DNA from: Corynebacterium caspium DSM 44850
GTDB lineage: Bacteria; Actinomycetota; Actinomycetes; Mycobacteriales; Mycobacteriaceae
Reading direction: 5' to 3'
Length of the DNA stretch: 64,000 nt
Assembly: GCF_030440555.1 (NCBI RefSeq)
Contig: NZ_CP047118.1
Location: 1,426,001 to 1,490,000, forward strand
Of this stretch, positions 25,250-45,429 are shown piece after piece. Within the stretch, counting starts at the first letter, position 1. Each line of letters begins with the position of its first letter. Under the pieces are notes generated by a model that was not told the DNA's origin, ran no database searches, and saw only the letters and a list, made by a program, of their open reading frames with translations. The translations under genes and the position numbers were made by a program.

Positions 25250-25258
25250 AAATTTTCC

Positions 25259-28859: not shown

Positions 28860-28897
28860 AGCCACCAGAGTCTAGCGCACAGGTAAGGTTAGGCAGC

Positions 28898-29920: not shown

Positions 29921-29921
29921 A

Positions 29922-30128: not shown

Positions 30129-31415
30129 ATGCGCATTATTAGTTTCCGCCGCAGCGCAGCCCTCCTAGCTACCGCCGCATTGGCGACTGGTCTGGCTGCC
30201 TGTTCCTCCGACTCCTCGACTGGCGCCGCCGCTGGTGGAGACTCCGCAGCATCCACTAGTGAATCTGATCGCGGACCGATCACTTTCGCCATGGGTAAAA
30301 ACGACACCGACAAATTAATTCCAATTATTCAAGCTTGGAATGAACAGCACCCAGACGAAAAAGTAACGCTCAAAGAGCTTGCCGGCGAAGCCGATGCGCA
30401 GCGCGAAACCCTAGTGCAATCACTCCAGGCAGGTAATGCCGACTACGATGTAATGGCACTTGATGTGGTGTGGACAGCCGATTTCGCCGCCAATCAGTGG
30501 CTGGCCCCACTTACCGGTGACCTCGCGATTGATACCAGCGAGCTACTTCCGGCCACAGTTAATTCCGCCACTTATAACGGCACCCTTTATGCACTGCCGC
30601 AAAACACCAACGGGCAGCTACTCTTCCGCAATACTGAAGTCATTCATACCGCACCCCTGGACTGGACACAGCTAGTGAACTCCTGTGAACTGGCCAGCCG
30701 CGCCGATGTTGACTGCCTAACTTTGCAGCTCAAGCAGTATGAAGGCCTAACTGTTAATACCGCCGGATTCATCGAAGGTTGGGGAGGGCACGTCCTTGAT
30801 AGTGCCGGACATCCCGCAGTAGATTCGGCTTCTGCTAAAGCTGGCCTCCAAGCACTAGTTGATGCCTACCAAGCTGGCGTGATCTCCAAGGCCTCCACTG
30901 CTGCCACTGAAGAAGAAACCAACCTGGCCTTCGTCGACGGAACCACCGCATATGCGGTGAACTGGCCATATATGTACACCAATGCCCAAGCTGAAGGCTC
31001 CAAAGTAGCTGGCAAAGTTGAAGTACAGCCCCTAGTTGGCCAAAACGGGATAGGTGTATCCACCCTCGGTGGCTATAACAACGGCATCAATATCAACTCC
31101 AAGCACAAGGCCACCGCCCGGGACTTCATGATGTTTATCATCAACGAAGAAAACCAGACCGCCTTCGCCGATGCTTCCTTCCCACCAGTACTCACCAAGA
31201 TCTACGACGACCCCTCCCTCGTCGCAAAATACCCCTACCTACCAGCACTAAAGATCTCCCTACAAAACGCCGTCCCGCGTCCAGTTAGCCCCTTCTACCC
31301 AGCTATCTCAAAAGCCATCCAAGATAATGCCTATGCCGCACTAACCGCCGGCAAGAGCGTCAACGATGCCACCTCAGATATGAAGGCAGCCATCGCTAAC
31401 GCCGCTAAAGGCTAG
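30129..31415 (+). CDS. tusE: Solute-binding lipoprotein, probable trehalose (TusE/LpqY-like)
   Basis: The 428-residue extracellular solute-binding protein (family 1) has a signal peptide and lipobox LAAC (Cys25). The mature part holds the typical ABC sugar-binding sequences: ITFAMGKNDTDKLIPIIQAW, YDVMALDVVWTADFAANQWL and LPQNTNGQLLF. It would capture the disaccharide outside the membrane and deliver it to the TusFG permease. A 208-base interval separates it from tusK and contains a hairpin. A TAAAAT element at 30076-30081 could be a -10 hexamer. Length fits the LpqY family. Confidence 0.88.
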   Translation: MRIISFRRSAALLATAALATGLAACSSDSSTGAAAGGDSAASTSESDRGPITFAMGKNDTDKLIPIIQAWNEQHPDEKVTLKELAGEADAQRETLVQSLQAGNADYDVMALDVVWTADFAANQWLAPLTGDLAIDTSELLPATVNSATYNGTLYALPQNTNGQLLFRNTEVIHTAPLDWTQLVNSCELASRADVDCLTLQLKQYEGLTVNTAGFIEGWGGHVLDSAGHPAVDSASAKAGLQALVDAYQAGVISKASTAATEEETNLAFVDGTTAYAVNWPYMYTNAQAEGSKVAGKVEVQPLVGQNGIGVSTLGGYNNGININSKHKATARDFMMFIINEENQTAFADASFPPVLTKIYDDPSLVAKYPYLPALKISLQNAVPRPVSPFYPAISKAIQDNAYAALTAGKSVNDATSDMKAAIANAAKG

Positions 31416-31425
31416 ACTCTGAGAC

Positions 31426-32421
31426 GTGCTTTCTCACCGACAAACTCGCGCAGCAGCACTGCTTATCGCCCCGGCGATGGCAGTGCTCGCTGTCGTTATT
31501 GGGTACCCCATCCTGCGGGCCATCTGGCTATCTTTCCAAGAAGACCGCCACCTAGACCCCACCACCGGAGTATTCGTCGAGGGCGGCTTCGCCGGCTTTG
31601 AACACTACCTCTACTGGCTAACCCAAAAATGCTCCGCAGGAATCTGCCCACCAGGAGTTTTAGCCACCGATTTCTGGCCCGCCCTACGCATCACCCTATT
31701 TTTCACCGTAGTAACCGTGCTGCTAGAAACCCTCCTCGGACTAGGCATGGCCCTCATCATGAACCGCGAATTCAAAGGACGAGCCTTAGTACGCGCCGCC
31801 GTCCTCATCCCCTGGGCCATCCCCACCGCCGTCACCGCAAAACTTTGGCAATTCATGTTCGCCCAACACGGCATCGTAAATTCACTACTAGGGCGCACCA
31901 TCGCCTGGACCACCGACCCGTGGGCCGCACGCTTTGCAGTAGTAATCGCCGACGTCTGGAAAACCACCCCCTTCATGGCGCTACTCATCCTAGCCGGCCT
32001 CCAAATGATCCCCAACGATCTCTACGAAGCCGCCCGCATGGACGGCGCCTCACGCTGGCAACAATTCCGGCGCCTCACCCTACCGCTAGTTAAACCCGCA
32101 CTCCTAGTAGCCGTACTCTTTCGCACCCTCGACGCGCTACGCATGTACGACCTCCCCGTAATCATGATTTCGCCCTCCGCAAACTCCCCCACCGCCACCA
32201 TCTCACAGCTGGTAGTAGAAGATATGCGGCAAAATAACTTCAACTCCGCCTCCGCGCTTTCCACCCTAATTTTCCTCCTCATATTTGCGGTGGCTTTCGT
32301 AATGGTCAAAGTGCTAGGTGCAGAGGTTGGCGAAAAAAGGGCGCGGGGAAGACGTCGGAACCCCCTCCCCTCCCCTGTGCAGAAAAATTTGGACGCACCG
32401 GAGCAAGGAGTAAAGGCATGA
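31426..32421 (+). CDS. tusF: ABC sugar importer permease TusF/SugA-like
   Basis: The 331-residue membrane protein has about six transmembrane helices and the EAA permease loop (YEAARMDGASRWQQFRRLTL). It belongs to the binding-protein-dependent sugar permease family (MalF/SugA). The GTG start lies ten bases after tusE. The C-terminal tail is basic and Pro-rich and includes a TGTGCAGAAAAA motif copy at 32376-32387, encoding Val-Gln-Lys. The stop overlaps tusG by four bases. Codon choice is strongly C-ending relative to the tusK gene. Confidence 0.9.
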   Translation: MLSHRQTRAAALLIAPAMAVLAVVIGYPILRAIWLSFQEDRHLDPTTGVFVEGGFAGFEHYLYWLTQKCSAGICPPGVLATDFWPALRITLFFTVVTVLLETLLGLGMALIMNREFKGRALVRAAVLIPWAIPTAVTAKLWQFMFAQHGIVNSLLGRTIAWTTDPWAARFAVVIADVWKTTPFMALLILAGLQMIPNDLYEAARMDGASRWQQFRRLTLPLVKPALLVAVLFRTLDALRMYDLPVIMISPSANSPTATISQLVVEDMRQNNFNSASALSTLIFLLIFAVAFVMVKVLGAEVGEKRARGRRRNPLPSPVQKNLDAPEQGVKA

Positions 32422-33254
32422 GAACCTCTCGGACTGCAGTGCTAGCCCACTATTTGGGGGTCGTGCTAATTCTGCTCTGGGGATTGGCGCCGTTTTATTG
32501 GATGGTGGTAACCGCCCTGCGGGATCGCGCCTTTACTTTCGACACCACCCCCTGGCCCACCCATGTGACCCTCGATAATATTCGCGATGCCCTGGCCACC
32601 GATAAAGGCAATGATTTTCTGCGCGCAATTGGCAACTCTTTGCTAATCAGCCTGGTCACCACCACCCTGGCTGTTGCCGTGGGAGTATTTACGGCCTATG
32701 CGCTAGCCCGCCTTAATTTTCCAGGCAAAGGCTTAGTGACCGGCATCGTGCTAGCAGCTTCGATGTTTCCAGGAATCGCGCTGGTCACCCCGCTATTTCA
32801 ACTATTTGGCAACCTCGGCTGGATCGGCAGCTACCAGGCACTAATCATCCCCAATATCTCCTTTGCACTGCCCTTAACGGTATACACTCTGATCTCGTTT
32901 TTCCGAGGTCTGCCGTGGGAACTCGAAGAAGCCGCCCGCGTCGACGGTGCCAGTAGATCCCAAGCTTTCCGCAAAATTTTGCTCCCCCTTGCCGCACCCG
33001 CGCTATTTACCACCGCGATCTTGGCCTTCATTGCCACCTGGAATGAATTCATGCTGGCCAGACAGCTTTCCACCAATGCCACAGAGCCAGTAACCGTAGC
33101 AATTGCGCGCTTCTCCGGGCCGAGCGCCTTCGAATACCCCTATACCGCCATCATGGCAGCCGGCTCGCTAGTAACCGTGCCCCTAATCATCATGGTTTTA
33201 ATATTCCAACGCCGCATCATCTCCGGACTAACCGCCGGCGGAGTGAAAGCCTAA
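32418..33254 (+). CDS. tusG: ABC sugar importer permease TusG/SugB-like
   Basis: The 278-residue second permease has six transmembrane helices and the EAA loop (LEEAARVDGASRSQAFRKILL). It resembles MalG/SugB. It is translationally coupled to tusF by ATGA. The final four bases overlap the convergent rmlD gene. With tusK, tusE and tusF it completes a CUT1-type importer. In mycolate-bearing bacteria, trehalose released by mycolyltransferases is recovered by this route. Confidence 0.9.
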   Translation: MRTSRTAVLAHYLGVVLILLWGLAPFYWMVVTALRDRAFTFDTTPWPTHVTLDNIRDALATDKGNDFLRAIGNSLLISLVTTTLAVAVGVFTAYALARLNFPGKGLVTGIVLAASMFPGIALVTPLFQLFGNLGWIGSYQALIIPNISFALPLTVYTLISFFRGLPWELEEAARVDGASRSQAFRKILLPLAAPALFTTAILAFIATWNEFMLARQLSTNATEPVTVAIARFSGPSAFEYPYTAIMAAGSLVTVPLIIMVLIFQRRIISGLTAGGVKA

Positions 33255-34063
33255 AGCTTCCCCTCAACAGCACGACGCACCCCCGCACTCCAATGCGGCA
33301 ACTCATAATCACTGGCCAAAACCGACCACTGCGGACGTACCGCCGGAGTCGGATACTGCACAGAGGGGATGGGGAGCACGCGCGCCGGATCTGCGCCCAC
33401 CGCCGCAAACGTAGCCTGAGCTAAACCATGCCAACTAGTATGCCCAGCTCCTACCGCGTGTCTTAAACCAGGGCGCGGATCTGCCGCTTCTGCCCAGAGC
33501 GCTCGCGCTAAATCCACCACATAGGTGGGGCTGCCGATCTGGTCGTCGACAACGCGCACAGGATCTGGCCCGGCGGCCAAGCGCAACATAGTGTGCAGAA
33601 AATCTCGGTGCGGCAAAAGATTGCCAGAATATACCCACGCAGTACGCACCACCGCCCCGCCAGCGGCAAGAACGCGCTGCTCACCGGCTAATTTTGTGCG
33701 CCCGTACACGGTTTGCGGGGCACCCGTTGGATCTTTCGGAGTTAGTGGGCGACGCGGCATATTGGGCCCAAAAACATAATCTGTGGAGACCTGAATCAGA
33801 TGCCCCACGCGCTCTGCCAGCAAACCGGGGGCCGTAGTGTTTAGAAAAGTGGCGGCTTCTGGGTGGGATTCGGCGGCATCGACAGCAGTATAGGCAGCGG
33901 CATTGATAACGATGGTGGTGGCATCGAGAAGTGGAGAAGTTGCGATGCTCTCCAAAGCTAAATCCGCCCTGGTGGCAAAGCATACGGAAGTGGCCCAAGG
34001 GGGTCGAGTGAGGGCAAGTGCGCGTCCGAGCTGGCCGGCGGCGCCAGTAACGACTACCTTCAT
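33251..34063 (-). CDS. rmlD: dTDP-4-dehydrorhamnose reductase
   Basis: The 270-residue protein is an extended SDR with GAAGQLGRAL near the N-terminus, VSTDYVFGP and YGRTKLAGE (the YxxxK catalytic pair), followed by AWVYSG. It reduces dTDP-4-dehydro-L-rhamnose to dTDP-L-rhamnose, the donor for WbbL encoded five kilobases away. The ATG at 34063 gives MKVVVTGAAGQLG, and the open frame upstream of it is unlike the family. No rmlB or rmlC gene is in the window. It contains one exact TGTGCAGAAAA motif (33592-33602). Confidence 0.92.
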   Translation of the reverse strand: MKVVVTGAAGQLGRALALTRPPWATSVCFATRADLALESIATSPLLDATTIVINAAAYTAVDAAESHPEAATFLNTTAPGLLAERVGHLIQVSTDYVFGPNMPRRPLTPKDPTGAPQTVYGRTKLAGEQRVLAAGGAVVRTAWVYSGNLLPHRDFLHTMLRLAAGPDPVRVVDDQIGSPTYVVDLARALWAEAADPRPGLRHAVGAGHTSWHGLAQATFAAVGADPARVLPIPSVQYPTPAVRPQWSVLASDYELPHWSAGVRRAVEGKL

Positions 34064-34122
34064 AAGAGCCCTTTCGTGGGATACTGGGAACAAATTGCTC
34101 AACAAGACAGGTCTTAATTCAG

Positions 34123-35754
34123 GTGAATGATAAGCCCCGTCGCACCGTTCGCGACATTCAACCCGCACCGAATGCACCGACGACGCTGCGTCAAACCGGC
34201 CACCCGGCATGGAAAACCCTGCTCGCCGGGATGTCTGCGACAGTACTGCTAGTCTCCGGGCTCGGCTATTTCTCTGTGGGGAAACTGGGAAACCAAGTAG
34301 CTTCCGCCGGGAATCTAACCCTAGGCGGCGGGGCGGGCATCAAAAATAATCCCGATGGAGCGACCGATATTTTGCTAGTAGGCTCCGATTCCCGAGTAGA
34401 TGCCCAAGGCAACCCCCTCAGTGAAGCCGAACTAGCAGCCATGCGCGCCGGAGTTTCCGAAGGCGAACACAACACCGATACCCTAATGGTGATCCGGGTG
34501 CCCAATGACGGCTCCTCTGCCACCGCTGTTTCCATCCCGCGCGATACCTATATTGCCGACCCAGACTACGGCAATATGAAAATCAACGGCGTTTTTTCTG
34601 CACATGCCAATGCCACCCGCACCCAGCTACTAAGCGAAGGCATCAGCGATGAACGCACCCTCGAACGCAAATCCACCTCCGCTGGACGCGAAGGCCTAAT
34701 CCGGGCAATCAACACCCTAACCGGCGTAGAAGTAGACCACTATGCAGAAGTAGGACTGCTAGGATTCGTGCTGCTCACCGACGCCCTTGGTGGTGTAGAC
34801 GTCTGCCTAAACGAAGCCGTATACGACGAATTCTCCGGCGCTAATTTCGCCGCCGGAAGGCAAACTCTAGACGGCCTCCAAGCGCTTTCCTTCGTGCGGC
34901 AACGCCACGGATTGCCGCGCGGCGACCTAGATCGCGTAGTCCGCCAACAAGCATTCATGGCCTCCATGGTTAATAAAGTGCTCTCCGCCGGCACGCTCAC
35001 CAGCCCCAGCCGACTCTCCGAACTTAGCCAAGCTGCCGAACGCTCCCTCGTCATCGACGAAAACTGGGACATCGTAAGTTTCGCCACCCAGCTTTCCAAC
35101 CTTGCTGCCGGCAATGTGACCTTTTCCACAATCCCGGTGACCTCCGTTGACGGCGTGGGCGATTATGGAGAATCCATCGTCACCGTCGATATCTCCCAAG
35201 TGCACCGCTTTATGGAAGAACTGCTCGGGCCAGAGGATGCTGCGGGAGGCCGCGGTGGTGCTGGTGCGGGTGGTGCTGGTGCGGGTGGTGCTGGTGCGGA
35301 CGCGAACACCCCCGCAGGCACCCCCGTTACCGCTAAGAACTTACACATCCTAAATGCCGGCGGACCCACCGGACTCGCCGCTGCTGTCGGCGGCTACCTT
35401 TCCACCTCCGGACACACCATCGCCGAAGTAGCCAACGCCCAACCAGGCGTGTACAGCCAAGCCCAAATCGTGGCCGCCGACGCCGACGATCCCGAAGCCC
35501 AAGCCCTCGCACTCCTGCTAGGAGGCCTACCAGTAACCAGCAACGCCGGCCTGGACAACCAAACCCTAATTGTGGTCACCGCCACTGACTACCAAGGCCC
35601 AACCGGCGATCCCGCCACAACCATCGGGAATTCCGCAGCAACCGAACTCGACGCCGCCAGCACCATCGGCCAACCCGGCGCAGACTTCGGCACCGCCCCC
35701 CAAGTCAGCCCAGAAATCGACGCTGGCGGCGACGGCCCACGCTGCGTCAACTAA
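34123..35754 (+). CDS. lcpA: LytR-CpsA-Psr (LCP) cell-wall ligase
   Basis: The 543-residue protein has an N-terminal cytoplasmic basic part, one transmembrane helix (about residues 33-50), the LCP domain (ILLVGSDSR; AVSIPRDTYI; DALGGVDVC; SFVRQRHGLPRGDLDRVVRQQ with catalytic Arg residues) and a LytR_C domain after a linker. LCP enzymes join arabinogalactan to peptidoglycan. The linker has three perfect 15-base repeats encoding Gly-Gly-Ala-Gly-Ala. The start GTG lies next to AGGTG. The C-terminal 50 residues are rich in Pro, Gly and Thr. The lcpA name follows C. glutamicum usage, where more than one LCP protein exists. Confidence 0.88.
   Translation: MNDKPRRTVRDIQPAPNAPTTLRQTGHPAWKTLLAGMSATVLLVSGLGYFSVGKLGNQVASAGNLTLGGGAGIKNNPDGATDILLVGSDSRVDAQGNPLSEAELAAMRAGVSEGEHNTDTLMVIRVPNDGSSATAVSIPRDTYIADPDYGNMKINGVFSAHANATRTQLLSEGISDERTLERKSTSAGREGLIRAINTLTGVEVDHYAEVGLLGFVLLTDALGGVDVCLNEAVYDEFSGANFAAGRQTLDGLQALSFVRQRHGLPRGDLDRVVRQQAFMASMVNKVLSAGTLTSPSRLSELSQAAERSLVIDENWDIVSFATQLSNLAAGNVTFSTIPVTSVDGVGDYGESIVTVDISQVHRFMEELLGPEDAAGGRGGAGAGGAGAGGAGADANTPAGTPVTAKNLHILNAGGPTGLAAAVGGYLSTSGHTIAEVANAQPGVYSQAQIVAADADDPEAQALALLLGGLPVTSNAGLDNQTLIVVTATDYQGPTGDPATTIGNSAATELDAASTIGQPGADFGTAPQVSPEIDAGGDGPRCVN
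35254..35298 (+). repeat. Three perfect 15-bp tandem repeats in lcpA
   Basis: Unit GGTGGTGCTGGTGCG is repeated three times exactly and in frame (residues 378-392). Copy number can change without frameshift, so linker length may vary between strains. Confidence 0.9.
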
Positions 35755-35785
35755 ACCCCGCCAAAAAATCGCTACGATCAGCCAC

Positions 35786-36460
35786 ATGGAACTGCTCAGC
35801 CACCTCCTGAAAACCGACCCCGCCGCCCCCAGACTCACCGTCTACGACGAAACCACCGGCGCCCGGCTCGATTTTTCTGCACATACGTTAGACAACTGGG
35901 CAGCCAAAGTCGCCAATATGCTCAACGAGGAATTCGACCTCGGCCCTGGCGCGAAAATCAGCATCCAGCTGCCCGTCGGGTGGCAAGCGGTGGTGATAGC
36001 GCTAGGTGCGATGGCCGCGGAGATAGCCTTCCAAATCAACACCCCCTGTGCAGAAAAAGATGTGACCTTCACAACACTTGAGGCGGCCAGGGCGATTCCT
36101 CCCGGAGAAATCGACTCCGATATCTGTGTGGTCACCAATGACACCTTTGGACGTGGCGTCGTCGAAACCGGCCAAGAACTCCCCGAAAATATCATCGACT
36201 TTGCCCCCACCGTGCGCGTCTACGGCGACCACTACGCCCCCCTCGGACCACGCCTGGCCCACTACCCCACCCGCTACGACGCCACCACCAGACTGCTATC
36301 CACCGGCTGGCACGACACCCCCAGTTTTTCTGCACAGGTACTAGAACCACTCGCCGGGGGCGGATCAGCGGTAATCGTCACCGGCCTGGCAAACAACAAA
36401 GAGCGCCTCACAGAAATTATTACCGCCGAAAAAACCACGCACTGCATCGTAAAGGACTAG
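35786..36460 (+). CDS. TIGR03089 family protein
   Basis: The 224-residue protein has the features of the actinobacterial TIGR03089 family, distantly related to the N-terminal half of AMP-binding acyl-adenylate enzymes: LTVYDETTGARLDFSAHTLDNW near the start and VWATNM-like regions replaced by VIVTGLANNKERL at the end. The AMP-binding STGxTGxPK loop and C-terminal domain are missing, so it is probably not an active ligase. The ATG at 35786 matches family length. Three exact copies of the TTTTTCTGCACA motif occur in 225 codons, encoding FSAH, CAEK and FSAQ. The gene lies between lcpA and purE, its usual place in corynebacteria. Confidence 0.75.
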   Translation: MELLSHLLKTDPAAPRLTVYDETTGARLDFSAHTLDNWAAKVANMLNEEFDLGPGAKISIQLPVGWQAVVIALGAMAAEIAFQINTPCAEKDVTFTTLEAARAIPPGEIDSDICVVTNDTFGRGVVETGQELPENIIDFAPTVRVYGDHYAPLGPRLAHYPTRYDATTRLLSTGWHDTPSFSAQVLEPLAGGGSAVIVTGLANNKERLTEIITAEKTTHCIVKD

Positions 36461-36480
36461 CAAACACGCTGCTCCAGGTG

Positions 36481-36981
36481 CTATTCGCCCATCAAACGAC
36501 GCTTCAGAGCATCGTCGCGCGCCACCACCTCCGCAGCCATTTCATCCTGGAACTCCACTATCCGCTTAAGCAAATTCGTATCCGAAATTGCCAACATACG
36601 AGCCGCCAACAAACCCGCATTTTTCCCGCCATCGATAGAAACCGTAGCCACCGGCACCCCCGCCGGCATCTGCACAATAGATAGCAACGAATCCATCCCA
36701 TCCAAATTCGGCAAAGCACGCGGCACCCCAATCACCGGCAAAGGCGTCGCCGATGCAATCATGCCCGGCAAATGCGCCGCCCCACCAGCACAAGCGATAA
36801 TAACTCTGATACCCCGCAAATGTGCCGTAGCCGCATACTGGAACATACGGTCCGGAGTCCTATGTGCAGAAATAACGCCAACCTCGAAAGGGATCTCCAT
36901 ATCCGTTAAGGCCAAAGCCGCAGGCTCTAGCGTTGGCCAATCCGAATCTGAACCCATAACTAAACCAACCAGCGCGCGCAC
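36481..36981 (-). CDS. purE: N5-carboxyaminoimidazole ribonucleotide mutase
   Basis: The PurE protein of about 166 residues converts N5-CAIR to CAIR in purine synthesis, using the product of PurK. Signatures are [10 protein letters not shown] at the start, [26 protein letters not shown] and [19 protein letters not shown]. The start is set at the GTG 36981 because GGAGG lies five bases before it and the product length fits. The frame remains open to 37053. PurK normally follows directly, but here a DUF222/HNH gene on the other strand separates them. Confidence 0.9.
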
Positions 36982-37063
36982 CAAAACCTCCACAGAATTT
37001 TTCGACAAAGACGCCTCATTGTGCGCATAAATCCGCGCCACCGTCAATGTCACCCCCTCCCCC

Positions 37064-37073
37064 TGTGCAGAAA
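37064..37073 (+). repeat. TGTGCAGAAA motif copy upstream of purE
   Basis: An exact copy in the purE-HNH intergenic interval, if purE starts at 36981. It lies 20 bases from a DnaA-box-like sequence. Confidence 0.7.
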
Positions 37074-37092
37074 CTTCTTAACGAAAGCCAAG

Positions 37093-37101
37093 TTATCCAC
37101 A
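37093..37101 (+). promoter_or_regulatory. Isolated DnaA-box-like TTATCCACA
   Basis: A perfect match to the consensus DnaA box, single and without a cluster, 53 bases upstream of the HNH gene. It could be chance, a DnaA titration site or part of that gene's control. Confidence 0.35.
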
Positions 37102-37153
37102 AGCACTCGACGACGAATCCCAACACACCACCCGAGCTCTTAAATTAACAGCC

Positions 37154-38347
37154 ATGGATCTAGCCCACGTCGCCATAACCGACCTTCTCCGCGCCGCCCG
37201 CAATCGTGGCGCAGAACTTGCCCGACTGGCATATCGTCGTTCCGCGACCCCGAAAGCCCGCCAAGAACTCGCCATAACCTTCGGCATAGAAGAAGCCCGC
37301 GCAGGACAATGGATCGCCGTGGGCAAACACCTCTACGCCACCCACGAAAATCCCACAGAAAACGCCCACCGCCAAGACGCCGCCCACCTAGCCGACACCA
37401 ACGGCTACAGCATCGACGCCCTCACCGTAATAAATACCGCCCTACGCCGCCTCCGCGCAGCCCCCATCGAAGCCACCCGAGCAACCATCTTGCGCGCAGC
37501 TATCGGCAAAAGCGTCACCGAAATCCGCGTCCTCGCCCGCAATATCATCCACGAACTCAACTCCGACGCACCCCTAGGACCCGTCCCAGAACGCCGCTAC
37601 CTCCGTATTTCCGCCGCCCCCGACGCCCACGGCATGCGCTACGCCACAATGTGCCTGCCAGACTCGCAAATGCAGGCACTAATACGCAAACTTGAGCCCG
37701 TGGCGCGCGAACTAATGAAGGAACAACCACAACTGCGCCACCAACAAGCCCTCCTCGACGCCCTGTGCAGAAATATTGGCGGCGGCGTTCACCCAAACCA
37801 ATGGCTGCGCCAAGCCGCCATACTAATCACCATGGATGATCTCGAATCCCGCGGCGACGGCACCTACGCCACCACTGACGGCGCGCTCATCACCCCGGCA
37901 GAATACGCCTCCCAAAAGCTTACCCCACACGGTCTTTGCCTGGTATACGACAAAAATGCCGAACCCGTAGACCTCTTCCGGACCGCCCGGCACGCCAACA
38001 GTAAACAACGCGCCATCCTCAGCCTAGACCAACTCCTGTGCAGCTATTCCTCCTGTTCGCGCAGCGCCGAAAATGGCCAAGCCCACCACATCAAAGCCTG
38101 GCAATACGGTGGCGAAACCAACCTCGCAAACCTCGCCCCAGCCTGCAAACAACACAACTCCTGGAACGACGACAATCCCGACGCCCCACCCCACAACGGT
38201 CGCATCGTCAAGCATCCCATCACCGGCGAAGGCTGCTGGCTGCGCCCCGACGCAACCTCACCACGCCTCAACTATTTTCCCATCAAGAATAAAAGCGGAC
38301 GACGTTGGGCCACTCGCAAAGTAGGACGCGAAATCGTCGACGCCTAA
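37154..38347 (+). CDS. DUF222/HNH endonuclease-like protein (13E12 family)
   Basis: The 397-residue protein has an N-terminal helical DUF222-type domain and a C-terminal HNH region (about residues 296-340): two Cys (CSYSSC), the HHIKAW His pair, NLANLAP and CKQHN. This is a complete His-Asn-His metal site for DNA cleavage. Such genes belong to the multicopy 13E12-REP group in Actinomycetota and their role is unclear (mobile or restriction-like). The gene interrupts the purE-purK pair on the opposite strand. It contains an exact TGTGCAGAAA copy (37764-37773) encoding Leu-Cys-Arg-Asn. Its third positions are strongly C/A-biased. Confidence 0.85.
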   Translation: MDLAHVAITDLLRAARNRGAELARLAYRRSATPKARQELAITFGIEEARAGQWIAVGKHLYATHENPTENAHRQDAAHLADTNGYSIDALTVINTALRRLRAAPIEATRATILRAAIGKSVTEIRVLARNIIHELNSDAPLGPVPERRYLRISAAPDAHGMRYATMCLPDSQMQALIRKLEPVARELMKEQPQLRHQQALLDALCRNIGGGVHPNQWLRQAAILITMDDLESRGDGTYATTDGALITPAEYASQKLTPHGLCLVYDKNAEPVDLFRTARHANSKQRAILSLDQLLCSYSSCSRSAENGQAHHIKAWQYGGETNLANLAPACKQHNSWNDDNPDAPPHNGRIVKHPITGEGCWLRPDATSPRLNYFPIKNKSGRRWATRKVGREIVDA

Positions 38348-38348
38348 A

Positions 38349-39509
38349 TTAGGCAGATGCCCAAGCGCCGTGCACCATATAGTGCGCGGCGGCCTTGGCG
38401 ACCCTACGCGCCTCATCCTCCTGTGCAGAAGTCACATTTACGTGCCCCAGCTTGCGCCCTGGACGATATTCCTTGCCGTACAGGTGGATCTTGGCTTGTG
38501 GAAAGCGTTCCCATACCGCAGACATACGTTCCTTCATTCCCTGTGCAGGAATTTCAGGTCCTCCCAAAATATTCGCCATAACCGTATACCCTCCGCACAT
38601 GTCTGTGCAGCCCAATGGGAGGTCTAGAACAGCCCGCAGATGCTGCTCGAATTGGCTGGTAACAGAACCATTTTGCGTCCAGTGCCCGGTGTTATGCGGG
38701 CGTATGGCTAGCTCGTTTACAAATACCGAACCATCAGCAAGTTGGAAAAGCTCTACAGCCATCACGCCTGTCACGTCGAGTTCTCGTGCTATTTTCGCTC
38801 CCAATTCTTGGAGTTCTTCAGATTTCTGCACAGGGAGGTTTGGGGCGGGAGCTACTGCTTCAACGCAAATTCCGTCGCGCTGGACAGACTCAGTTACTTC
38901 CCAGGCGCGAATTTCGCCACTCCGATTTCGCGCTACTAGAACAGAAAGTTCGCGAATAAAGCCAACTTTGCGCTCAGCGACGAGCGGAACTGCATCGGCA
39001 AGCAGCTTTTCGACGAGTTCGCGTGCTTGCGCTAATGATGCGGGAAACCACACGCCGTGGCCGTCGTACCCGCCACGAGCCGCTTTGAGGCAAACATTTC
39101 CGTCCACACGAGACCAGAAGTCTTCGATGTTGGCAGTATTTTCAATGGCCGCAAATTCCGGAACAGGCACCCCTAGGGCCGCTAGTTTACGACGCTGCGC
39201 CAACTTATCCTGTGCATAAATAAGCGCGTGGGGGCGCGGTTCCACAATGACGCCTTCCCCGAGGAGTACCTCTGCGTGCTCATTGGGAACATGTTCGTGG
39301 TCGAAGGTCATGGCATCAGCGCCGGATACGGCACGTCGAAGGTCGTCCAGGTTGGTATAGTCGCCGAGCACAGTTTTCTGCACAGACTGTGCGGCAGAGG
39401 AGTCGAGGGAACTGCCAAGCACTGTGAGAGAAATGCCCAGTTCGACGGCTGCGGGTTGCATCATGCGGGCCAACTGCCCGTCGCCTATGACGGCTACTAC
39501 GCTATTCAC
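38349..39509 (-). CDS. purK: 5-(carboxyamino)imidazole ribonucleotide synthase
   Basis: The 386-residue ATP-grasp enzyme makes N5-CAIR from AIR, bicarbonate and ATP for PurE. Visible are the N-terminal VAVIGDGQLARMM, DHEHVPNEHAEVLL, ATP-grasp segments (KAARGGYDGHGVWF; ELAIRPHNTGHWT) and the C-terminal sequence INLYGKEYRPGRKLGHVNV-like region. The start overlaps the upstream PH-domain gene stop by eight bases. It is separated from purE by the HNH gene. Several motif copies and variants lie inside this gene. Confidence 0.93.
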   Translation of the reverse strand: MNSVVAVIGDGQLARMMQPAAVELGISLTVLGSSLDSSAAQSVQKTVLGDYTNLDDLRRAVSGADAMTFDHEHVPNEHAEVLLGEGVIVEPRPHALIYAQDKLAQRRKLAALGVPVPEFAAIENTANIEDFWSRVDGNVCLKAARGGYDGHGVWFPASLAQARELVEKLLADAVPLVAERKVGFIRELSVLVARNRSGEIRAWEVTESVQRDGICVEAVAPAPNLPVQKSEELQELGAKIARELDVTGVMAVELFQLADGSVFVNELAIRPHNTGHWTQNGSVTSQFEQHLRAVLDLPLGCTDMCGGYTVMANILGGPEIPAQGMKERMSAVWERFPQAKIHLYGKEYRPGRKLGHVNVTSAQEDEARRVAKAAAHYMVHGAWASA

Positions 39510-39960
39510 GGCCTCTACTATAGGTGGCGATGATCGCGGCGATGCGTTTGGTGCGCGGCAGCGTGTGCAGAATTAGCGGAGGCGCACCATCCCTAGTGTG
39601 CAGAATTATGCGCCGCCGTTTTTTCTGCACATGGAAGATGTTGGCCAGCGGTATGTTAATTCTTGCCTCGCTAAACGATGCCTCCCTGTGCACAAGTCTG
39701 TGCGTGGTAATTAGTAGCCGTTGGCGTCGGGCGCGCGCTACGGGCCAGAGAAGCCGCCAAGCTAGAAGTATCGCCCAAATGCCGACGGCTGCGTTGTGCA
39801 CGTCTATGCCGGCATAAACGCTGGTGTCGAGCCAGCCGATGACGATCCACGAGACTCCGGTGAGCGCGATAGCTTCGAGAAGCGGGAAGGTCAGCGCACT
39901 GAAACGCGTGGTGACGTCTACTAGGAGGCGTTCGCCGCGGGCTGGCTTAAAAGTGGACAT
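39502..39960 (-). CDS. PH-domain membrane protein
   Basis: The 152-residue protein has an N-terminal polar stretch (RGERLLVDVTTRFSAL), two transmembrane helices (about residues 27-45 and 54-72) and a bacterial PH (bPH2-like) domain with LLITTHRLVHREASF and ANIFHVQKKRRRIIL. The same gene lies between birA and purK in many corynebacteria and mycobacteria. Its function is not known. It lies six bases after the birA stop and overlaps purK by eight bases, so birA, this gene and purK appear to be an operon. Confidence 0.8.
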   Translation of the reverse strand: MSTFKPARGERLLVDVTTRFSALTFPLLEAIALTGVSWIVIGWLDTSVYAGIDVHNAAVGIWAILLAWRLLWPVARARRQRLLITTHRLVHREASFSEARINIPLANIFHVQKKRRRIILHTRDGAPPLILHTLPRTKRIAAIIATYSRGRE

Positions 39961-39966
39961 AGGAGG

Positions 39967-40680
39967 TTAGTTTAGGGGGCGCAGGTGGGTGATGTCGCCG
40001 GCGGAATAGCTGTGGGTAGTGCCGTCGTTTCTGCACAGGAGGATTTCGCCGGTGTCGGTGATGTCTTGGGCTACCCCTTCGATGCTGCCGTTCGGGGTAT
40101 CGATGCGCACATGTTGGCCGAGAGTGGCGCAGCGTTCTCTATACGTGTGCAGAAGTGTGGGATCTGCGGCGGCCCACTGGGCGAGGCGTGTTTCTAGGTG
40201 GGTGGCGACGGCGGCCAGGATCTCTTTTTCGCTGCGGGTATCTCCTTGGAGCCTTAACGATGTGGCGTTTTCGACCGGCAGTTCAGCGGCGGTGAGGCTG
40301 ACGTTTAGGCCGATACCGAGGGCGATGCGCGGGTGTTCTGGGTCGCTGAAATCGGCCTCGGCGAGGATGCCGCAAATCTTCTTTTTCTGCACAAGGAGGT
40401 CGTTGGGCCATTTGAGGCTGGAGTTACTGATGACGTCGGTCATCGCGACGCCGGCGGCGAGGGGAAGCAGCCCAAGGTGGGGCAGTTGTGCGGCATCTGG
40501 GGTGACGAGCGTGGACATCGCTAGGCCGGTATTTGGTGGGGCCTCCCAGGTGCGTTCGTGGCGTCCGCGGCCGTGTGTTTGGTGGTGGGCTACTAGGAGG
40601 GTGTGTGGTGGGAAGGCGGGGTTTTGGAGGATGTCTGCGTTCGTGGAGCCGGTGGTGGCGATTTCCTGGATTGTGAGCAT
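39967..40680 (-). CDS. birA: Biotin-[acetyl-CoA-carboxylase] ligase
   Basis: The 237-residue biotin protein ligase has the GRGRHERTWEAPPNTGL motif, TGSTNADIL, LKWPNDLLV and GIGLNVSL. It lacks the N-terminal DNA-binding domain of E. coli BirA, so it acts only as an enzyme. Its substrates AccBC and Pyc are both encoded in this window. The ATG at 40680 is chosen. A GTG eight codons upstream remains open. It is divergent from dtsR1. Confidence 0.92.
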   Translation of the reverse strand: MLTIQEIATTGSTNADILQNPAFPPHTLLVAHHQTHGRGRHERTWEAPPNTGLAMSTLVTPDAAQLPHLGLLPLAAGVAMTDVISNSSLKWPNDLLVQKKKICGILAEADFSDPEHPRIALGIGLNVSLTAAELPVENATSLRLQGDTRSEKEILAAVATHLETRLAQWAAADPTLLHTYRERCATLGQHVRIDTPNGSIEGVAQDITDTGEILLCRNDGTTHSYSAGDITHLRPLN

Positions 40681-40707
40681 GCTTCGTAGCTTAGTGGCCA
40701 GCACGCT

Positions 40708-40727
40708 AACCTACGGGGGCGTAGTTT
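40708..40727. promoter_or_regulatory. Inverted repeat between birA and dtsR1
   Basis: AACCTACG-GGGG-CGTAGTTT is an inverted repeat with one mismatch in the divergent promoter interval. C. glutamicum accD1 is controlled by the fatty-acid regulator FasR at a nearby operator. This dyad is a candidate but the match to FasR sites was not checked. Confidence 0.45.
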
Positions 40728-40809
40728 TTTGCCGCTTTACCTGCATAAAGGGAGGTTACGGTGGGTTTTGCACTAGAAAGCAGTGGGATTTGTGTCTATG
40801 CTTCCTAAC

Positions 40810-42390
40810 ATGACTGATACCTCACCTTCCTTGGCCACTACTGCTGACCGGATTGCAGATCTGCTGCGTCGTCGTGAAGAGGCGGCGGCGCCTATGGGAG
40901 TTTCTGCACAGGAGCGGGTGCGTGCGCAGGGGCGCATGACGGTTCGCGAGCGCCTAGATTACCTCCTTGACGAAGGCTCTTTTGTGGAATTGGATCAGCT
41001 GGTTCGGCATCGGACTACTGCTTTTGGGTTGGATGCGCGGCGTCCGTTAACGGATGGCATTGTCACCGGCTGGGGCACGATTGATGGCCGTGAGGTGTGT
41101 ATTTTTTCGCAGGATGGCACGGTTTTTGGGGGGGCTGTGGGCGAGGTTTATGCGGAGAAGATGGTTAAGGTGATGGAGTTGGCGGTGGCGACGGGGCGTC
41201 CGCTAATTGGTTTATATGAGGGGGCGGGGGCGCGTATTCAAGATGGCGCGGTGTCTTTGGATTGGATTGCGCAAACCTTTTATCACAATGTGCGCGCTTC
41301 GGGGGTGGTGCCGCAGATTTCGGTGATTATGGGTGCTTGTGCTGGTGGTAATGCGTATTCGCCGGCTTTGACGGATTTTGTGGTGATGGTTGATAAGACG
41401 TCGCGCATGTTTGTTACTGGCCCGGATGTTATTAAAACGGTCACTGGGGAGGAAATTACGCAGGAGGAGTTAGGTGGGGCGGCGCAGCATTTGGCGGTGG
41501 CGGGTAATTCCCATTTCACGGCGGCTAATGATGCTGAGGCTTTGGATTGGGTGGGTAATTTGATTAGTTATCTGCCGTCGAATAATCGCCAGTTGCCCCC
41601 TACTGAGTTGCCTGAGCAGCTGGGGGAAGAGGCAGCTGTTGCGCAGGCTTTGGATGCGTTGATTCCAGATTCTGCGATGACTCCTTATGATGTGCGTGAA
41701 ATTATTGAGGCGCTAGCCGATGATGGCGAGTTTTTGGAGATCCAGGAGGGTCGCGCGGATAACGTGGTGATCGCTTTTGGACGTATCGCTGGGGAAACTG
41801 TTGGTTTTGTGGCTAATCAGCCGCTGGTTTTCGCTGGGTGCCTAGATATTGATTCTGCGGAGAAGGCGGCGCGTTTTGTGCGCACCTGCGATGCCTTCAA
41901 TATTCCCATCATCATGCTTGTCGATGTGCCGGGTTTTCTTCCTGGCGCAGAACAAGAACATGACGGAATTTTAAGGCGCGGCGCCAAGCTGCTCTACGCC
42001 TATGCGGAGGCCACGGTCCCAAAGATCACCGTAACTATTCGCAAAGCTTATGGCGGCGCATATTGTGTGATGGGTTCTAAGGGGCTGGGTGCAGATTTAA
42101 ATCTGGCCTGGCCTACCGCCCAAATTGCAGTCATGGGAGCTTCAGGAGCTGTGGGTTTCTTGCGGCGGAAAGAAATTGCGGCCGCAGCTGATCCGGCGGC
42201 AGCTATTGCCCAGTATGAAAAAGATTATGAAGATTACATCCTCAACCCATATTTAGCGGCGGAGCGCGGGCTAATCGATGCGGTGATTTTGCCGTCAGAA
42301 ACTCGCGAAGAATTAATTCGGGCGCTGCATTTGCTCCGCGATAAAACCGAGACTCGTCCGGCACGCAAACACGGAAATATTCCGCTGTAA
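40810..42390 (+). CDS. dtsR1: Acyl-CoA carboxylase carboxyltransferase DtsR1/AccD1
   Basis: The 526-residue beta subunit transfers carboxyl from carboxybiotin on AccBC to acyl-CoA. It closely follows C. glutamicum DtsR1: [64 protein letters not shown] and [20 protein letters not shown], ending [11 protein letters not shown]. The crotonase-like N and C domains and both oxyanion loops are intact. It starts at ATG 40810. Codon choice changes part way: up to about 41,880 codons end mostly in G or T, afterwards more in C or A. A small epsilon-like gene follows. Confidence 0.94.
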
Positions 42391-42431
42391 CGCTTCCTCC
42401 CCATTTCCCGACAAACTATAAGGATATATTG

Positions 42432-42623
42432 ATGGTCCCGATTTTTTCTATAACCAAAGGCACTCCCGACTCGCAGGAATTGGCCGCACTCACCATGCTC
42501 ATGGCCGCCGGCAATTCTGAACAGCTGACTACTTCAAAGCATCCACGTACTGCGTGGGTGCCTACCCCAGAGGTAGGAGGCGGTTTAAAGCGGACTGGGC
42601 TGCCGGGTTTTAACTGGCACTAA
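42432..42623 (+). CDS. Small acyl-CoA carboxylase epsilon-like protein
   Basis: A 63-residue protein follows dtsR1 by 41 bases, with AAGGA eight bases before its ATG. The N-terminal part, PIFSITKGTPDSQELAALTM, resembles the AccE pattern (FxVVRGNPxxxELAAL) and the C-terminal part TAWVPTPEVGG matches the Ser-Ala-Trp ending of many epsilon subunits. It would help assemble and stimulate the carboxylase complex. A second epsilon-like gene (44102-44287) follows dtsR2, so each carboxyltransferase may have its own small partner. Confidence 0.65.
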   Translation: MVPIFSITKGTPDSQELAALTMLMAAGNSEQLTTSKHPRTAWVPTPEVGGGLKRTGLPGFNWH

Positions 42624-42669
42624 ACCCCCGAATGAGGCTTCTTGGCCGGAGCCCCTAGAATTGAGCACT

Positions 42670-44091
42670 ATGTCTGATCTTTCTACTACCGCTGGCAAAC
42701 TTGCCTTCTTGCAGAGTCGTCTCGCAGAGGCGCAACAGCCCCTTGGCACCGCATCGGCCACTCGGGCACTAGTCACGCAGCTGGTGGATGAAGGCTCATT
42801 CATTGAGGTAGACGCCCTGGCTAAACATCGGGTATCCGATATTGACCCCAAACCCGCAACCGATGGCATTATCGCAGGTTACGGCACTATCGACGGCCGT
42901 AAAATCTGCGTATTTGCCCAAGATCCCAGCATCTTTGAAGGCCGCTTAGGGGAAGTCAGCGGAGAAAAAATCCTCAAGATGCAACAGTTGGCGCTCAAAA
43001 CTGGGGTACCCCTAGTAGGCATTTATGCCGGGCTCGGCGCCCGCGCCAGCGAAGGGGTAGGAGCACTAGCTTTCTACACCGCCATCCAAGCCGGATTCGC
43101 CCAAGCCTCCGGGGTAATCCCCCAGCTGGCAATCATCGCCGGCGAACTCGAAGGCCCCAACGCCTTACTCCCCCAGTGTGCAGACTTTTTAATCGGCCCC
43201 AGCAACCACGCCCACCTCCAAGTGGAATCCGCGGCAGCAGGGGTACAAGCCGCTCGCAAACTACTGCACTACCTGCCAGCTAATAACCGCGCAGAAGCCC
43301 CGCGTCCGGTACAAGACCGGCTTGCTGGGGCGGCAGACACTTGGATTCGGGAAGCTGATAAAGCTCTAGATGCAGCGATTCCTGACGATCCCACCTCCGC
43401 TCTCCCTGTGCAGAAAATTTTGGACACCTTGGTCGACGAAAATTCTTGGCTGGAGCTACAGCCAGGAACTGGCGCCGGGATGCTCGCTGGGCTAGCGCGA
43501 ATCGAAGGCCGCGTAGTTGGAGTATTGGCCAATACCGGGCTCTTGACGGCATCGGGAATGCGCAAGGCAGCTCGTCTGGTGCGCACTTGTGATGCTTTTA
43601 GTATTCCGATGTTATCGCTGGTAGATGCGCCAGATTTTGATACCTCTGCGGCTGCGACCGTGCAAGCAGCTGGCCAGTTAGCTTTCGCTATGGCTGAAGC
43701 TAGCGTCGGCAAATTAGCGGTAGTTTTACGCCACGCCATGGGTGCTGGCTACACCGTTATGGGCGCCAAAAATTTAGGCACTGACCTAGTATTTGCCTGG
43801 CCCACCGCCGAAATTGCGGCCATGACTGGTGCCCAAGCGGTACCCAGCATTAATGCTGCACAGTTAGCAAAGGCCGAGCGTCGCGGCAAGGATGTGGCGG
43901 CCTTGCGCACCCAGCTTGAACAAGATTATGACGCCACCCAACTTACTCCTTATGCTGCGGCAGAACGCGGGCTAGTGGATGCCGTAATCATGCCCGCCCA
44001 GACCCGTGGCCAGCTGGTTGAAGGCCTGCGCTTGGTAGACCGTAAAGTGATCTACGGACCAGCCAAGAAGCTCGGCAATATCCAGCTGTAG
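42670..44091 (+). CDS. dtsR2: Acyl-CoA carboxylase carboxyltransferase DtsR2/AccD2
   Basis: The 473-residue second carboxyltransferase has DGIIAGYGTIDGRKICVFAQ, a degenerate middle with GLGARASEGVGALAFYTAIQ, VVLRHAMGAGYTVMGAKNLG, and ends YGPAKKLGNIQL. It is shorter than DtsR1 by about 50 residues, mainly in the middle. In C. glutamicum DtsR2 is one of two extra subunits needed with AccD3 for mycolic-acid-related long-chain acyl-CoA carboxylation. The start ATG 42670 is chosen. A TTG three codons upstream lies closer to the GGAG. Exact motif copy at 43407-43417 encodes Val-Gln-Lys. Confidence 0.92.
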   Translation: MSDLSTTAGKLAFLQSRLAEAQQPLGTASATRALVTQLVDEGSFIEVDALAKHRVSDIDPKPATDGIIAGYGTIDGRKICVFAQDPSIFEGRLGEVSGEKILKMQQLALKTGVPLVGIYAGLGARASEGVGALAFYTAIQAGFAQASGVIPQLAIIAGELEGPNALLPQCADFLIGPSNHAHLQVESAAAGVQAARKLLHYLPANNRAEAPRPVQDRLAGAADTWIREADKALDAAIPDDPTSALPVQKILDTLVDENSWLELQPGTGAGMLAGLARIEGRVVGVLANTGLLTASGMRKAARLVRTCDAFSIPMLSLVDAPDFDTSAAATVQAAGQLAFAMAEASVGKLAVVLRHAMGAGYTVMGAKNLGTDLVFAWPTAEIAAMTGAQAVPSINAAQLAKAERRGKDVAALRTQLEQDYDATQLTPYAAAERGLVDAVIMPAQTRGQLVEGLRLVDRKVIYGPAKKLGNIQL

Positions 44092-44101
44092 GAGTGACGC
44101 T

Positions 44102-44287
44102 GTGGCAGACTATTTATTTCGCGTGGTGCGCGGCAATCCGGATGAAACCGAGATGGCCGCAATTCAGCTGGCTTTGGAGCTAAAACTCAAAGAGGCGACA
44201 GACGCCCAAACCGCCGAACGCAATGCTTATGGAACCCCGCTGGAGCATTTCAACAGCGCCGCTTTCCGCAGCATCACCTATTTTTGA
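44102..44287 (+). CDS. accE: Acyl-CoA carboxylase epsilon subunit AccE
   Basis: The 61-residue protein contains FRVVRGNPDETEMAAIQLAL, the AccE signature, followed by a helical stretch. A clear GGAG precedes the GTG start, ten bases after dtsR2. Epsilon subunits bind between the biotinylated alpha and carboxyltransferase beta subunits and raise activity. It is shorter than mycobacterial AccE and lacks a long disordered N-terminus, as in corynebacteria. maf follows seven bases later on the same strand. Confidence 0.85.
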   Translation: MADYLFRVVRGNPDETEMAAIQLALELKLKEATDAQTAERNAYGTPLEHFNSAAFRSITYF

Positions 44288-44294
44288 GAAGATC

Positions 44295-44888
44295 ATGCAG
44301 CTAATTCTGGCCTCCCAATCCCCCTCTCGCCGAGCCGTGCTACGCGCCGCCGGCGTGGAACCCGTGGTGCGCCCGGCCAATATTGACGAAACCGCCCTCC
44401 TCGCATCCCTAACCACAGCCAGCCCGGCAGATAAAGTGCGCGCCCTGGCTAAAGCCAAAGCTCAGGCAGTGGGCAGCGAACCTGGCAGCATTACCGTCGG
44501 CTGCGATTCCATGTTGCTTATCGATGGCCAGCTCCAAGGCAAACCGCATACCCAGGAAGCAGCCGTAGAACGTTGGCGGGCCCAACGCGGGCGGCAAGCT
44601 ACCTTGCTAACCGGCCATTGGCTGCTGTGGGAGGGCGGCTCATATGGGGAAACTACCAGTACTGAGATATTTTTCGCCCCGGCTACTGATGCAGATATTT
44701 ATGCTTATGCGGAAACTGGCGAACCACTAGAATGCGCTGGCGCCTTTACTTTAGAGGCCCTCGGTGGGTGGTTTGTGGAGCGGATCGAAGGGGATCCATC
44801 GAGTGTAATTGGGATTTCTTTGCCACTTTTAAGACGCGTCTTAAATGAGCATGTGGGGATAAATATCAGCGATTTGTGGCAGCGCTAG
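44295..44888 (+). CDS. maf: Maf-like nucleotide pyrophosphatase
   Basis: The 197-residue Maf/HAM1-related enzyme hydrolyses noncanonical or excess nucleoside triphosphates to monophosphates. The N-terminal signature ILASQSPSRRAVLRAAG, the GCDSMLLIDG segment and GDPSSVIGISLPLL match the family. The usual ADT triad reads CDS here, with the key Asp retained. The ATG at 44295 is chosen. It is cotranscribed with accE, the usual arrangement in Actinomycetota. Confidence 0.9.
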   Translation: MQLILASQSPSRRAVLRAAGVEPVVRPANIDETALLASLTTASPADKVRALAKAKAQAVGSEPGSITVGCDSMLLIDGQLQGKPHTQEAAVERWRAQRGRQATLLTGHWLLWEGGSYGETTSTEIFFAPATDADIYAYAETGEPLECAGAFTLEALGGWFVERIEGDPSSVIGISLPLLRRVLNEHVGINISDLWQR

Positions 44889-44902
44889 CTAAGGTGGGCC
44901 CC

Positions 44903-45313
44903 ATGGATATAAATGATCTCATGGCTCCCCCACCGATTCAGTTGCCTGCTGATCCCGCCGCAGAGCTGGACCCGACCCTGACCTCCACTGCCTTTTTGCA
45001 CCCAGAAAGCCCCCTAGTGTGGGCTACCCGCGCCGAGGCCGCCTTAGCAGCAGCTACTAGCGATGAAACCAAATTGGTAGCTTATGCGGCCGCCCGGACT
45101 GGTTATCACCGCAGTTTGGATCGTCTGCGCGCCAATGGTTGGAAAGGTTGGGGCCCAATTCCGTGGGAGCACCCTGCCAACCAGCCGGTATTGCGCGCCA
45201 TCGCCGCCCTGGCACGTGCTGCGGCATTAATTGGCGAAACGCATGAATATGATCGTTGCCGCCAGATGCTTTCCGATGCAGATCCGGCAAGTGTGGCCCG
45301 CCTGCTGGATTAA
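44903..45313 (+). CDS. DUF3151 family protein
   Basis: The 136-residue helical protein has FLHPESPLVWATRAEAALAA, YAAARTGYHRSLDRLR and a WKGWGPIPWEHPANQ motif typical of DUF3151. The family is conserved in Actinomycetota and of unknown function. AAGGTGG lies six bases before the ATG. It follows maf by 14 bases and may end the carboxylase operon. The frame ends in GC-rich intergenic DNA. Confidence 0.85.
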   Translation: MDINDLMAPPPIQLPADPAAELDPTLTSTAFLHPESPLVWATRAEAALAAATSDETKLVAYAAARTGYHRSLDRLRANGWKGWGPIPWEHPANQPVLRAIAALARAAALIGETHEYDRCRQMLSDADPASVARLLD

Positions 45314-45429
45314 CAGCAGCGCGAGCTCCGCCAGCGCGAGCCGCACCCGCGCCGGCGCCCGGTGCGCAGCACGGCAGCACGGCAGCGCCCGCTCCCGCAC
45401 TACCGGCACCACCGGCACCGTCCGCGAAC
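45314..45429. other. GC-rich low-complexity intergenic segment
   Basis: The 116 bases between convergent genes are strongly GC-rich with CAGCGCGAGC-type and GGCACCACC-type near-repeats (GCACGGCAGCACGGCAGC). No clear terminator with a T-run is seen. Similar stretches occur at 12.8, 29.9 and 49.6 kb. Confidence 0.7.

Follow-up and report, generated by a model that had tools for sequence, protein, structure and literature searches.

Why should one 10-nucleotide word, TGTGCAGAAA, be packed around a single gene of a bacterial chromosome? The question is raised by a 64-kb stretch of the genome of Corynebacterium caspium DSM 44850, here called the window (G000:C1:1,426,001-1,490,000, where G000 is this 1.863-Mb single-contig genome). 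The gene at the centre of the cluster lies between purE and purK and encodes P0001, an HNH nuclease of 397 amino acids. Comparison with homologous HNH loci of the genus establishes that the word follows the HNH lineage, not the genome or the location, and suggests that the cluster and its HNH gene are a genetic element of a kind not yet described, one that marks the host genes beside it with its own address.

The word cluster and the gene at its centre

A sequence-only reading of the window had counted at least 21 exact copies of TGTGCAGAAA (both strands summed), 14 of them inside 33,592–40,910, against a chance expectation of about 0.12. We recovered all 21, and 100 dinucleotide shuffles of the window gave a mean of 0.12 copies and a maximum of 1. 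In a 20-kb piece around the cluster, 18 copies were observed versus 0.07 expected under an order-3 Markov model. Near-variants are not enriched: each of the 30 one-mismatch words occurs at most three times in the window. Copy-by-copy placement confirmed that the word occurs both inside and outside coding sequence, in sense and antisense orientation, and in every reading frame. This indifference to frame and strand supports the earlier proposal that the DNA word itself is selected, by selection or by drive. The exact matches are as follows.

81..90, minus strand: word TGTGCAGAAA
4715..4724, plus strand: word TGTGCAGAAA
13350..13359, plus strand: word TGTGCAGAAA
28523..28532, minus strand: word TGTGCAGAAA
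32376..32385, plus strand: word TGTGCAGAAA
33592..33601, plus strand: word TGTGCAGAAA
34595..34604, minus strand: word TGTGCAGAAA
35874..35883, minus strand: word TGTGCAGAAA
36047..36056, plus strand: word TGTGCAGAAA
36327..36336, minus strand: word TGTGCAGAAA
36863..36872, plus strand: word TGTGCAGAAA in purE
37064..37073, plus strand: word TGTGCAGAAA, 90 base pairs (bp) upstream of the HNH start
37764..37773, plus strand: word TGTGCAGAAA within the HNH gene
38823..38832, minus strand: word TGTGCAGAAA in purK
39375..39384, minus strand: word TGTGCAGAAA in purK
39622..39631, minus strand: word TGTGCAGAAA
40028..40037, minus strand: word TGTGCAGAAA in birA
40384..40393, minus strand: word TGTGCAGAAA in birA
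40901..40910, minus strand: word TGTGCAGAAA in a carboxyl transferase gene (called dtsR2 in the sequence-only reading)
43407..43416, plus strand: word TGTGCAGAAA
46794..46803, minus strand: word TGTGCAGAAA

The whole genome contains 50 copies, and the reversed control word occurs once. Thirty-four of the 50 are found no more than 160 kb from the HNH gene (window position 37,154); the 16 copies farther away compare with 5–10 expected for the whole genome by order-3 and order-5 Markov models trained on 15 sampled stretches. Density per 10 kb is 22 within 2.5 kb of the HNH gene and then, in successive distance bins, 8, 3, 0, 2, 0.75 and about 0.1. None of the other genomes sampled in the genus (151) has more than 17 copies. 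In the same count the reversed control AAAGACGTGT was itself in excess in G004 and G012 (19 and 16 copies).

In G000, dnaA is at contig position 802, two parS sites lie close to the end of the contig, and GC skew, in the stretches sampled, changes sign near 915 kb. The cluster, at about 1,464 kb, is mid-replichore and thus neither at the origin nor at the terminus. The left replichore has five copies on each strand, hence no KOPS-type polarity.

The central gene has the following features.

37154..38347, plus strand: HNH nuclease gene (P0001), centre of the word cluster, the G+C peak and the skew flip
37256..37336, plus strand: predicted helix-turn-helix, residues 35-61, of a ParB/Noc-like N-terminal domain, with a putative recognition helix at 47-61 (AlphaFold model, VIA-align and alignment)
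38039..38173, plus strand: HNH catalytic/zinc motif (C296, C301, H311-H312, G319-G320, C331, H334, N338-D340; alignment of 25 homologues)

In all six relatives examined, purE and purK are adjacent, with no such gene between them. P0001 is predicted to combine a ParB/Noc-like helix-turn-helix domain with an intact HNH motif, whose residues are invariant in all 25 aligned homologues. Among the chains compared by VIA-align of the AlphaFold model, the N-terminal fold is closest to the DNA-binding domains of Noc and ParB; Foldseek alone gave no match in the PDB at E ≤ 0.001. None of the 25 members matched the ParB_N (CTPase) domain, and the canonical ParB of G000 does carry it. One canonical ParB was found in each of the 12 genomes searched with the HTH_ParB profile, in G000 beside parS. 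Pfam DUF222 matches three of the 25 members at E ≤ 0.01, and not P0001. Neither transfer machinery nor a transposase was matched among the 20 proteins scanned around the gene, and PADLOC gave no match. A single DnaA-box-like sequence, TTATCCACA, perhaps there by chance, is located at window position 37093, after the upstream word and before the start of the HNH gene.

Base composition also centres on this gene.

4000..56000, no strand: raised G+C at four-fold sites, 0.52-0.67 in 4-kb bins (automatic choice of open reading frames)
30000..42400, no strand: strand-skew flip, the top strand being C/A-rich left of the HNH gene and G/T-rich right of it, regardless of gene strand

Four-fold-site G+C reaches 0.74 within the HNH gene and 0.61–0.67 across 32–44 kb (three 4-kb bins); outside 4–56 kb it is 0.39–0.52, except in two bins (0.55 and 0.56). 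Four-fold-site G+T, in genes of either strand, is 0.31 and 0.31 to the left of the HNH gene and 0.56 and 0.58 to the right. The sign of this flip is that of a replication origin in the G000 chromosome, where the sampled leading strand is G/T-rich. Keto skew, measured over 4-kb arms, rises from left to right at 24 of 28 HNH locations versus 13 of 25 control positions (Mann-Whitney P 2e-4), and at several loci four-fold sites show the flip too, whichever strand the gene is on. The window, L088, L108, L110 and L113 have a strong flip; the G043/G068 location and the L115/L117/L118/L126 location have none. The strongest flip measured (keto +0.40) belongs to L088, a second HNH gene of G000 (G000:C1:1,236,715-1,237,824), around which we found a weak candidate word only (TTCTCGTA, six copies).

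Sister HNH loci and their private words

P0001 was searched against 242 genomes of the genus at E ≤ 1e-42, and at most seven candidates per genome were scored; homologues are present in at least 25 of the 242. We compared 40 HNH loci of 20 kb, the window included, with homologues at E 1.9e-42 or better (the value of L095, just above the cut). Outside this count stand L102 and L103 (more distant HNH genes of G016), L089 (a weak third homologue in G000) and L091 (an HNH gene near purE in G009). Taking log10 P ≤ -8 under an order-3 Markov model as the threshold for a private word, and with one unrelated word type set aside, a strongly enriched word was found at 18 of the 40 HNH loci versus none of 18 control loci. 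The 18 loci represent ten chromosomal locations, as judged by common flank genes, and about nine words.

TGTGCAGAAA: window locus, above threshold
CCGTGGGGAAA: L110, L112, L113 and L114, above threshold
CTCTCCTAG: L115, L117 and L118, above threshold
CCTCCTAGAG: L126, above threshold
CCTTCAGGAA: L093, L116 and L120, above threshold
CTCCTAACTT: L094 and L125, above threshold
ATATATCTAG: L095 and L134, above threshold
CCCTTGAAGA: L128, above threshold
CATGGGGA: L119, at the threshold limit

A matrix of ten words against the 40 HNH loci and 25 control loci is nearly diagonal. For instance, CTCCTAACTT occurs 12 and 17 times at its home loci, and never in the 38 other HNH loci or the 25 controls. 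The short CATGGGGA is less clean, with 38 occurrences over 39 other HNH loci (at most three in each), and CGTGCGGAA is weak (six copies at home, three of the reversed control). TGTGCAGAAA occurs nine times in the controls, ten of which are pieces of its own genome, several picked because they hold a copy.

The word goes with the HNH lineage, whatever the location. CCGTGGGGAA surrounds HNH genes at three locations (L112 = L114, L113 and L110) that have fewer than four flank genes in common. Of all 242 genomes, the five richest in CCGTGGGGAA (G222 with 84 copies, G068 with 83, G043 with 70, G182 with 58 and G111 with 27; the next genome has 23) are precisely those that carry its HNH types. In a tree of the HNH proteins (which includes two wrongly chosen reading frames, L093 and L127, as long branches and has no row for L109, L119, L133 or L135), L108 and L110 form a group with the window protein (98/98), and their words, CGTGCGGAA and CGTGGGGAAA, resemble TGTGCAGAAA; the word of L108 is itself below the private-word threshold. 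The association also allowed a prediction. CTCCTAACTT is present in 31 and 27 copies in its two known carriers, in 25 copies in G190 and in at most four in every other genome of the 242; from the cluster in G190, an HNH gene that the first homologue search had not listed was therefore predicted near 1.76 Mb, and it was found there, with 70–72% identity to the sister proteins. The HNH gene of G222 (L148/L150, C1 about 209.6 kb) is split by a frameshift and its words persist; its flanks are about 92% identical to those of G068, and the frameshift is probably too recent for decay of the words to show.

Several words coexist in one genome: three in G007, three in G190 (the later-found gene counted), and two each in G182, G086, G043, G068 and G082. 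These private words speak against the genome-wide roles first offered for TGTGCAGAAA. Uptake sequences have one dialect per species, and here G007 has three words at its three HNH loci, as G190 has three; moreover, 34 of the 50 copies of TGTGCAGAAA are local. A Chi-like role fails on the same local clusters and multiple words, and a role at oriC or the terminus or as a KOPS-type segregation mark was rejected on the position of the cluster in mid-replichore and the equal strand counts. In short, uptake, Chi and KOPS roles were rejected because the word is local to one HNH gene and the sister HNH genes of one genome differ in word. A further reading, in which a double-strand break at the gene is resected and the word acts like Chi, was also considered and rejected, since private words per locus exclude one genome-wide Chi; the sign of the skew, by reasoning, fits outward replication and not exposed 3' ends.

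At 14 of 19 loci a word is present within 300 bp upstream of the HNH start. Words are oriented 77 to 53 in the pooled loci (P 0.04), and a universal inward polarity was rejected: 12 of 17 words within 10 kb of the window gene point inward (P 0.14), as do 22 of 49 in G182, and at L119 10 of 12 point outward. Inverted word pairs were seen at L094 and L095 (CTCCTAACTT with a short loop, and CTAGATATATATCTAG). Uptake words occur as inverted pairs at terminators.

The word type set aside, CGTCGNNAAGC with its look-alikes, was the sole word reaching threshold in five of the 18 controls (L096, L105, L107, L139 and L144), and likewise at HNH loci L100, L122, L123, L124 and L137; L107, L122, L123 and L137 hold look-alikes assigned by judgement. 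It is not tied to HNH loci, because it is also present in control regions. CGTCGNNAAGC is dispersed on both strands in many genomes, with dozens of copies per 60–100 kb in G007, G009 and G019 (reversed control 0–1), and its NN preference varies by species (for example AC/AA in G007, AT in G009, AG in G019). It is rare in G000, where its five commonest forms total 14 copies in 504 kb. Another sequence, AAGGGGTGCC, forms inverted pairs with a 35-bp spacer, clustered in one 120–170 kb region in G207 (L155-L161, C3:118-241 kb) and in G064 (C2:444-615 kb), and occurs also in G128 C22; no HNH homologue was found in the AAGGGGTGCC region of G207.

Conservation of the words and how they may have arisen

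Between G043 and G068, which are 85% identical, 18 of 20 word sites are identical versus a background of 0.254 (P 2e-9), and over 60 kb 32 of 38 are. Four further species pairs gave 10/12 versus 0.291, 11/11 versus 0.501, 5/9 versus 0.139 and 5/7 versus 0.188. The L094/L125 pair is weaker (10/13 versus 0.444, P 0.018), and the L093/L116 pair is not significant (6/7 versus 0.531, P 0.085). Words are thus conserved above background in six of seven pairs, L115 and L093 each being used in two of the seven. These figures cover sister words, as no close relative with the window's HNH type was found for TGTGCAGAAA. For TGTGCAGAAA itself, copies beyond the cluster come close to the background number and the word is missing from relatives, a result that the sequence-only reading had named as one that would refute its proposal; yet the sister words are strongly conserved position by position between species. 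On this conservation the phenomenon stands; the genome-wide roles fall.

Fourteen of the 21 window words, all coding, were compared with orthologues. Each aligned gap-free in at least one relative, and on these 14 an origin by insertion of the word as a small element was rejected; in some other relative there is a gap at or in the words at 36047, 36327, 40028 and 40901. Coding copies of TGTGCAGAAA mostly replace orthologous codons in place; most lie where the residues vary (six encode VQK) or are compatible with a conserved peptide, SAH for example. Turnover is visible between L115 and L126, which occupy one location and whose proteins are 69% identical: the CTCCTAG core is kept at some sites and gained or lost at others.

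A putative recognition helix with G-R-[YW] goes with the core CGTGG in two clades (34–35% identical overall), and also with CGTGCGG at L108; W-[LV]-G-S-[VI] goes with CTCCTA at two locations (40–42% identical); R-[IA]-G-Q-I goes with CCCTT (35% identical); and the A-G-Q-W of the window protein goes with TGTGCAG. These apparent matches, in about ten lineages, were noticed after the fact. Two points weigh against them: identity over the 12-residue helix does not rank with word sharing (25% for L110/L112, with the same word, and 42% for the window and L116, with different words), and the word of L119 is similar although G-R-[YW] is absent there. Because these exceptions were recounted, our confidence that the protein binds its word was lowered slightly; binding is still very probable.

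Our preferred reading, to which we give a probability of roughly 0.6, is that TGTGCAGAAA is the recognition word of the protein at the cluster centre, and that gene and words form one cis-acting element. The HNH gene sits between host genes; words would be written into the flanks for tens of kb, inside host genes and chiefly through base substitutions, and then kept; and sister elements with other words would occupy other loci and other species. The protein may bind its word and nick DNA near its own gene, and the nick may start recombination-coupled DNA synthesis running outward, which is proposed to produce both the G+C peak and the origin-like skew between strands. When alleles with and without words recombine, the one with words and HNH gene would be favoured, and by this bias, we propose, gene and words would spread and persist together; the length of recombination tracts would set the reach within which words are placed and kept. 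This sequence of nuclease action, outward synthesis and biased recombination is a tentative proposal, its drive a conjecture, and its least certain step is how words gain over word-free sequence. It is possible, rather than probable, that the loci represent a new class: a single-gene element, with helix-turn-helix and HNH parts, that stamps a private word over tens of kb by recombination-biased substitution, overrides host protein sequence at variable sites and acts as a secondary initiation point of DNA synthesis.

The main rival is that the protein is a domesticated chromosome-organising or segregation factor, with words that are parS- or NBS-like sites under host selection and an HNH part with some other role. 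A site for a DNA-binding protein was the last candidate of the sequence-only reading, and it is the best class for the word; the chromosome-organising role attached to it we consider unlikely. The predicted N-terminal fold, nearest to Noc and ParB among the chains compared, would suit such a factor, as would word positions conserved between species, inverted pairs of some words and the retention of one HNH location across several species. Against it stand the invariant HNH residues of the 25 aligned proteins and the single canonical ParB in every genome searched (12/12); a host function should also be more uniform than a patchily present gene (at least 25 of 242 genomes at E ≤ 1e-42) with several different words per genome and one lineage at unrelated locations.

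Improbable is a private transfer word, that is, a local uptake or transfer sequence by which fragments with word and HNH gene move preferentially between cells for recombination. Uptake words do have dialects among related species (PMC3630211), and HNH lineages sharing a word sit at different locations; against this, the word is not genome-wide, several words share a genome, and the 20 proteins scanned around the gene include no transfer machinery. Somewhat less probable again is that the words serve for autoregulation or as decoys and nothing else, the protein repressing its own gene and extra sites titrating it. The words close upstream of the HNH start (14/19 loci) speak for this. The many sites to 80 kb and beyond, conserved between species in unrelated coding genes, speak against it, and the skew flip is left unexplained. 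Import of the segment from a donor rich in the word, the cluster being a relic, would fit the raised G+C around the centre and is very improbable, as 17 copies is the most in any other genome of the 151 sampled, six relatives have the same core genes without the word, and other loci repeat the pattern with words of their own.

Comparison with known systems

If the preferred reading is true, a gene can shape the surrounding chromosome in a new way, through its own recognition word, in many lineages with different words. The loci would then suggest what a large family of HNH proteins, so far uncharacterised, does; they would supply naturally occurring pairs of protein and DNA word, and would allow a test of the origin of short words under drive versus host selection. 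Partners and sites can be found by sequence alone, and one such prediction, in G190, succeeded.

Known HNH homing endonucleases recognise one long site at the insertion point. The present genes resemble them in the intact HNH motif, in an insertion site empty in relatives (purE-purK, 6/6), and in occupying several unrelated loci per genus, with recombination-linked spread plausible. They appear to differ in that the sequence here is a 9–12 bp word with many conserved copies through the flanks of the occupied chromosome. The REP13E12/DUF222 HNH proteins of mycobacteria are probably related to the P0001 family, and are named among repetitive categories in the DIVE paper (PMC10589994). However, most of the 25 proteins here do not match the DUF222 model. 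In the open-access literature we found no private word or function for REP13E12/DUF222 proteins, and no published description of private word clusters or of a function of the present HNH proteins.

Dialects of DNA uptake words among related species are described in the paper cited above (PMC3630211). The present words share with uptake words (DUS/USS) a short exact sequence inside genes, on both strands, with dialects in related species and inverted pairs; in contrast, they are local around one gene, not thousands genome-wide, and more than one occurs per genome. Uptake words, too, are found in coding DNA and as inverted pairs. ParB–parS and Noc–NBS share a helix-turn-helix of similar predicted fold and multiple sites clustered around a region. 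Here, however, no ParB_N was found among the family members, an HNH nuclease is carried, several private words occur per genome, and G000 has its canonical ParB and parS apart from this locus, at oriC. REP–RAYT likewise pairs a single gene lineage with its own sequence family; RAYT, however, belongs to the Y1 transposases and REPs are extragenic palindromes of greater length, whereas the central gene here is an HNH gene and the 10-nucleotide word lies mostly inside genes. Uptake words, ParB–parS and RAYT–REP each share a part of this system, and each differs from it in a defining feature that we tested.

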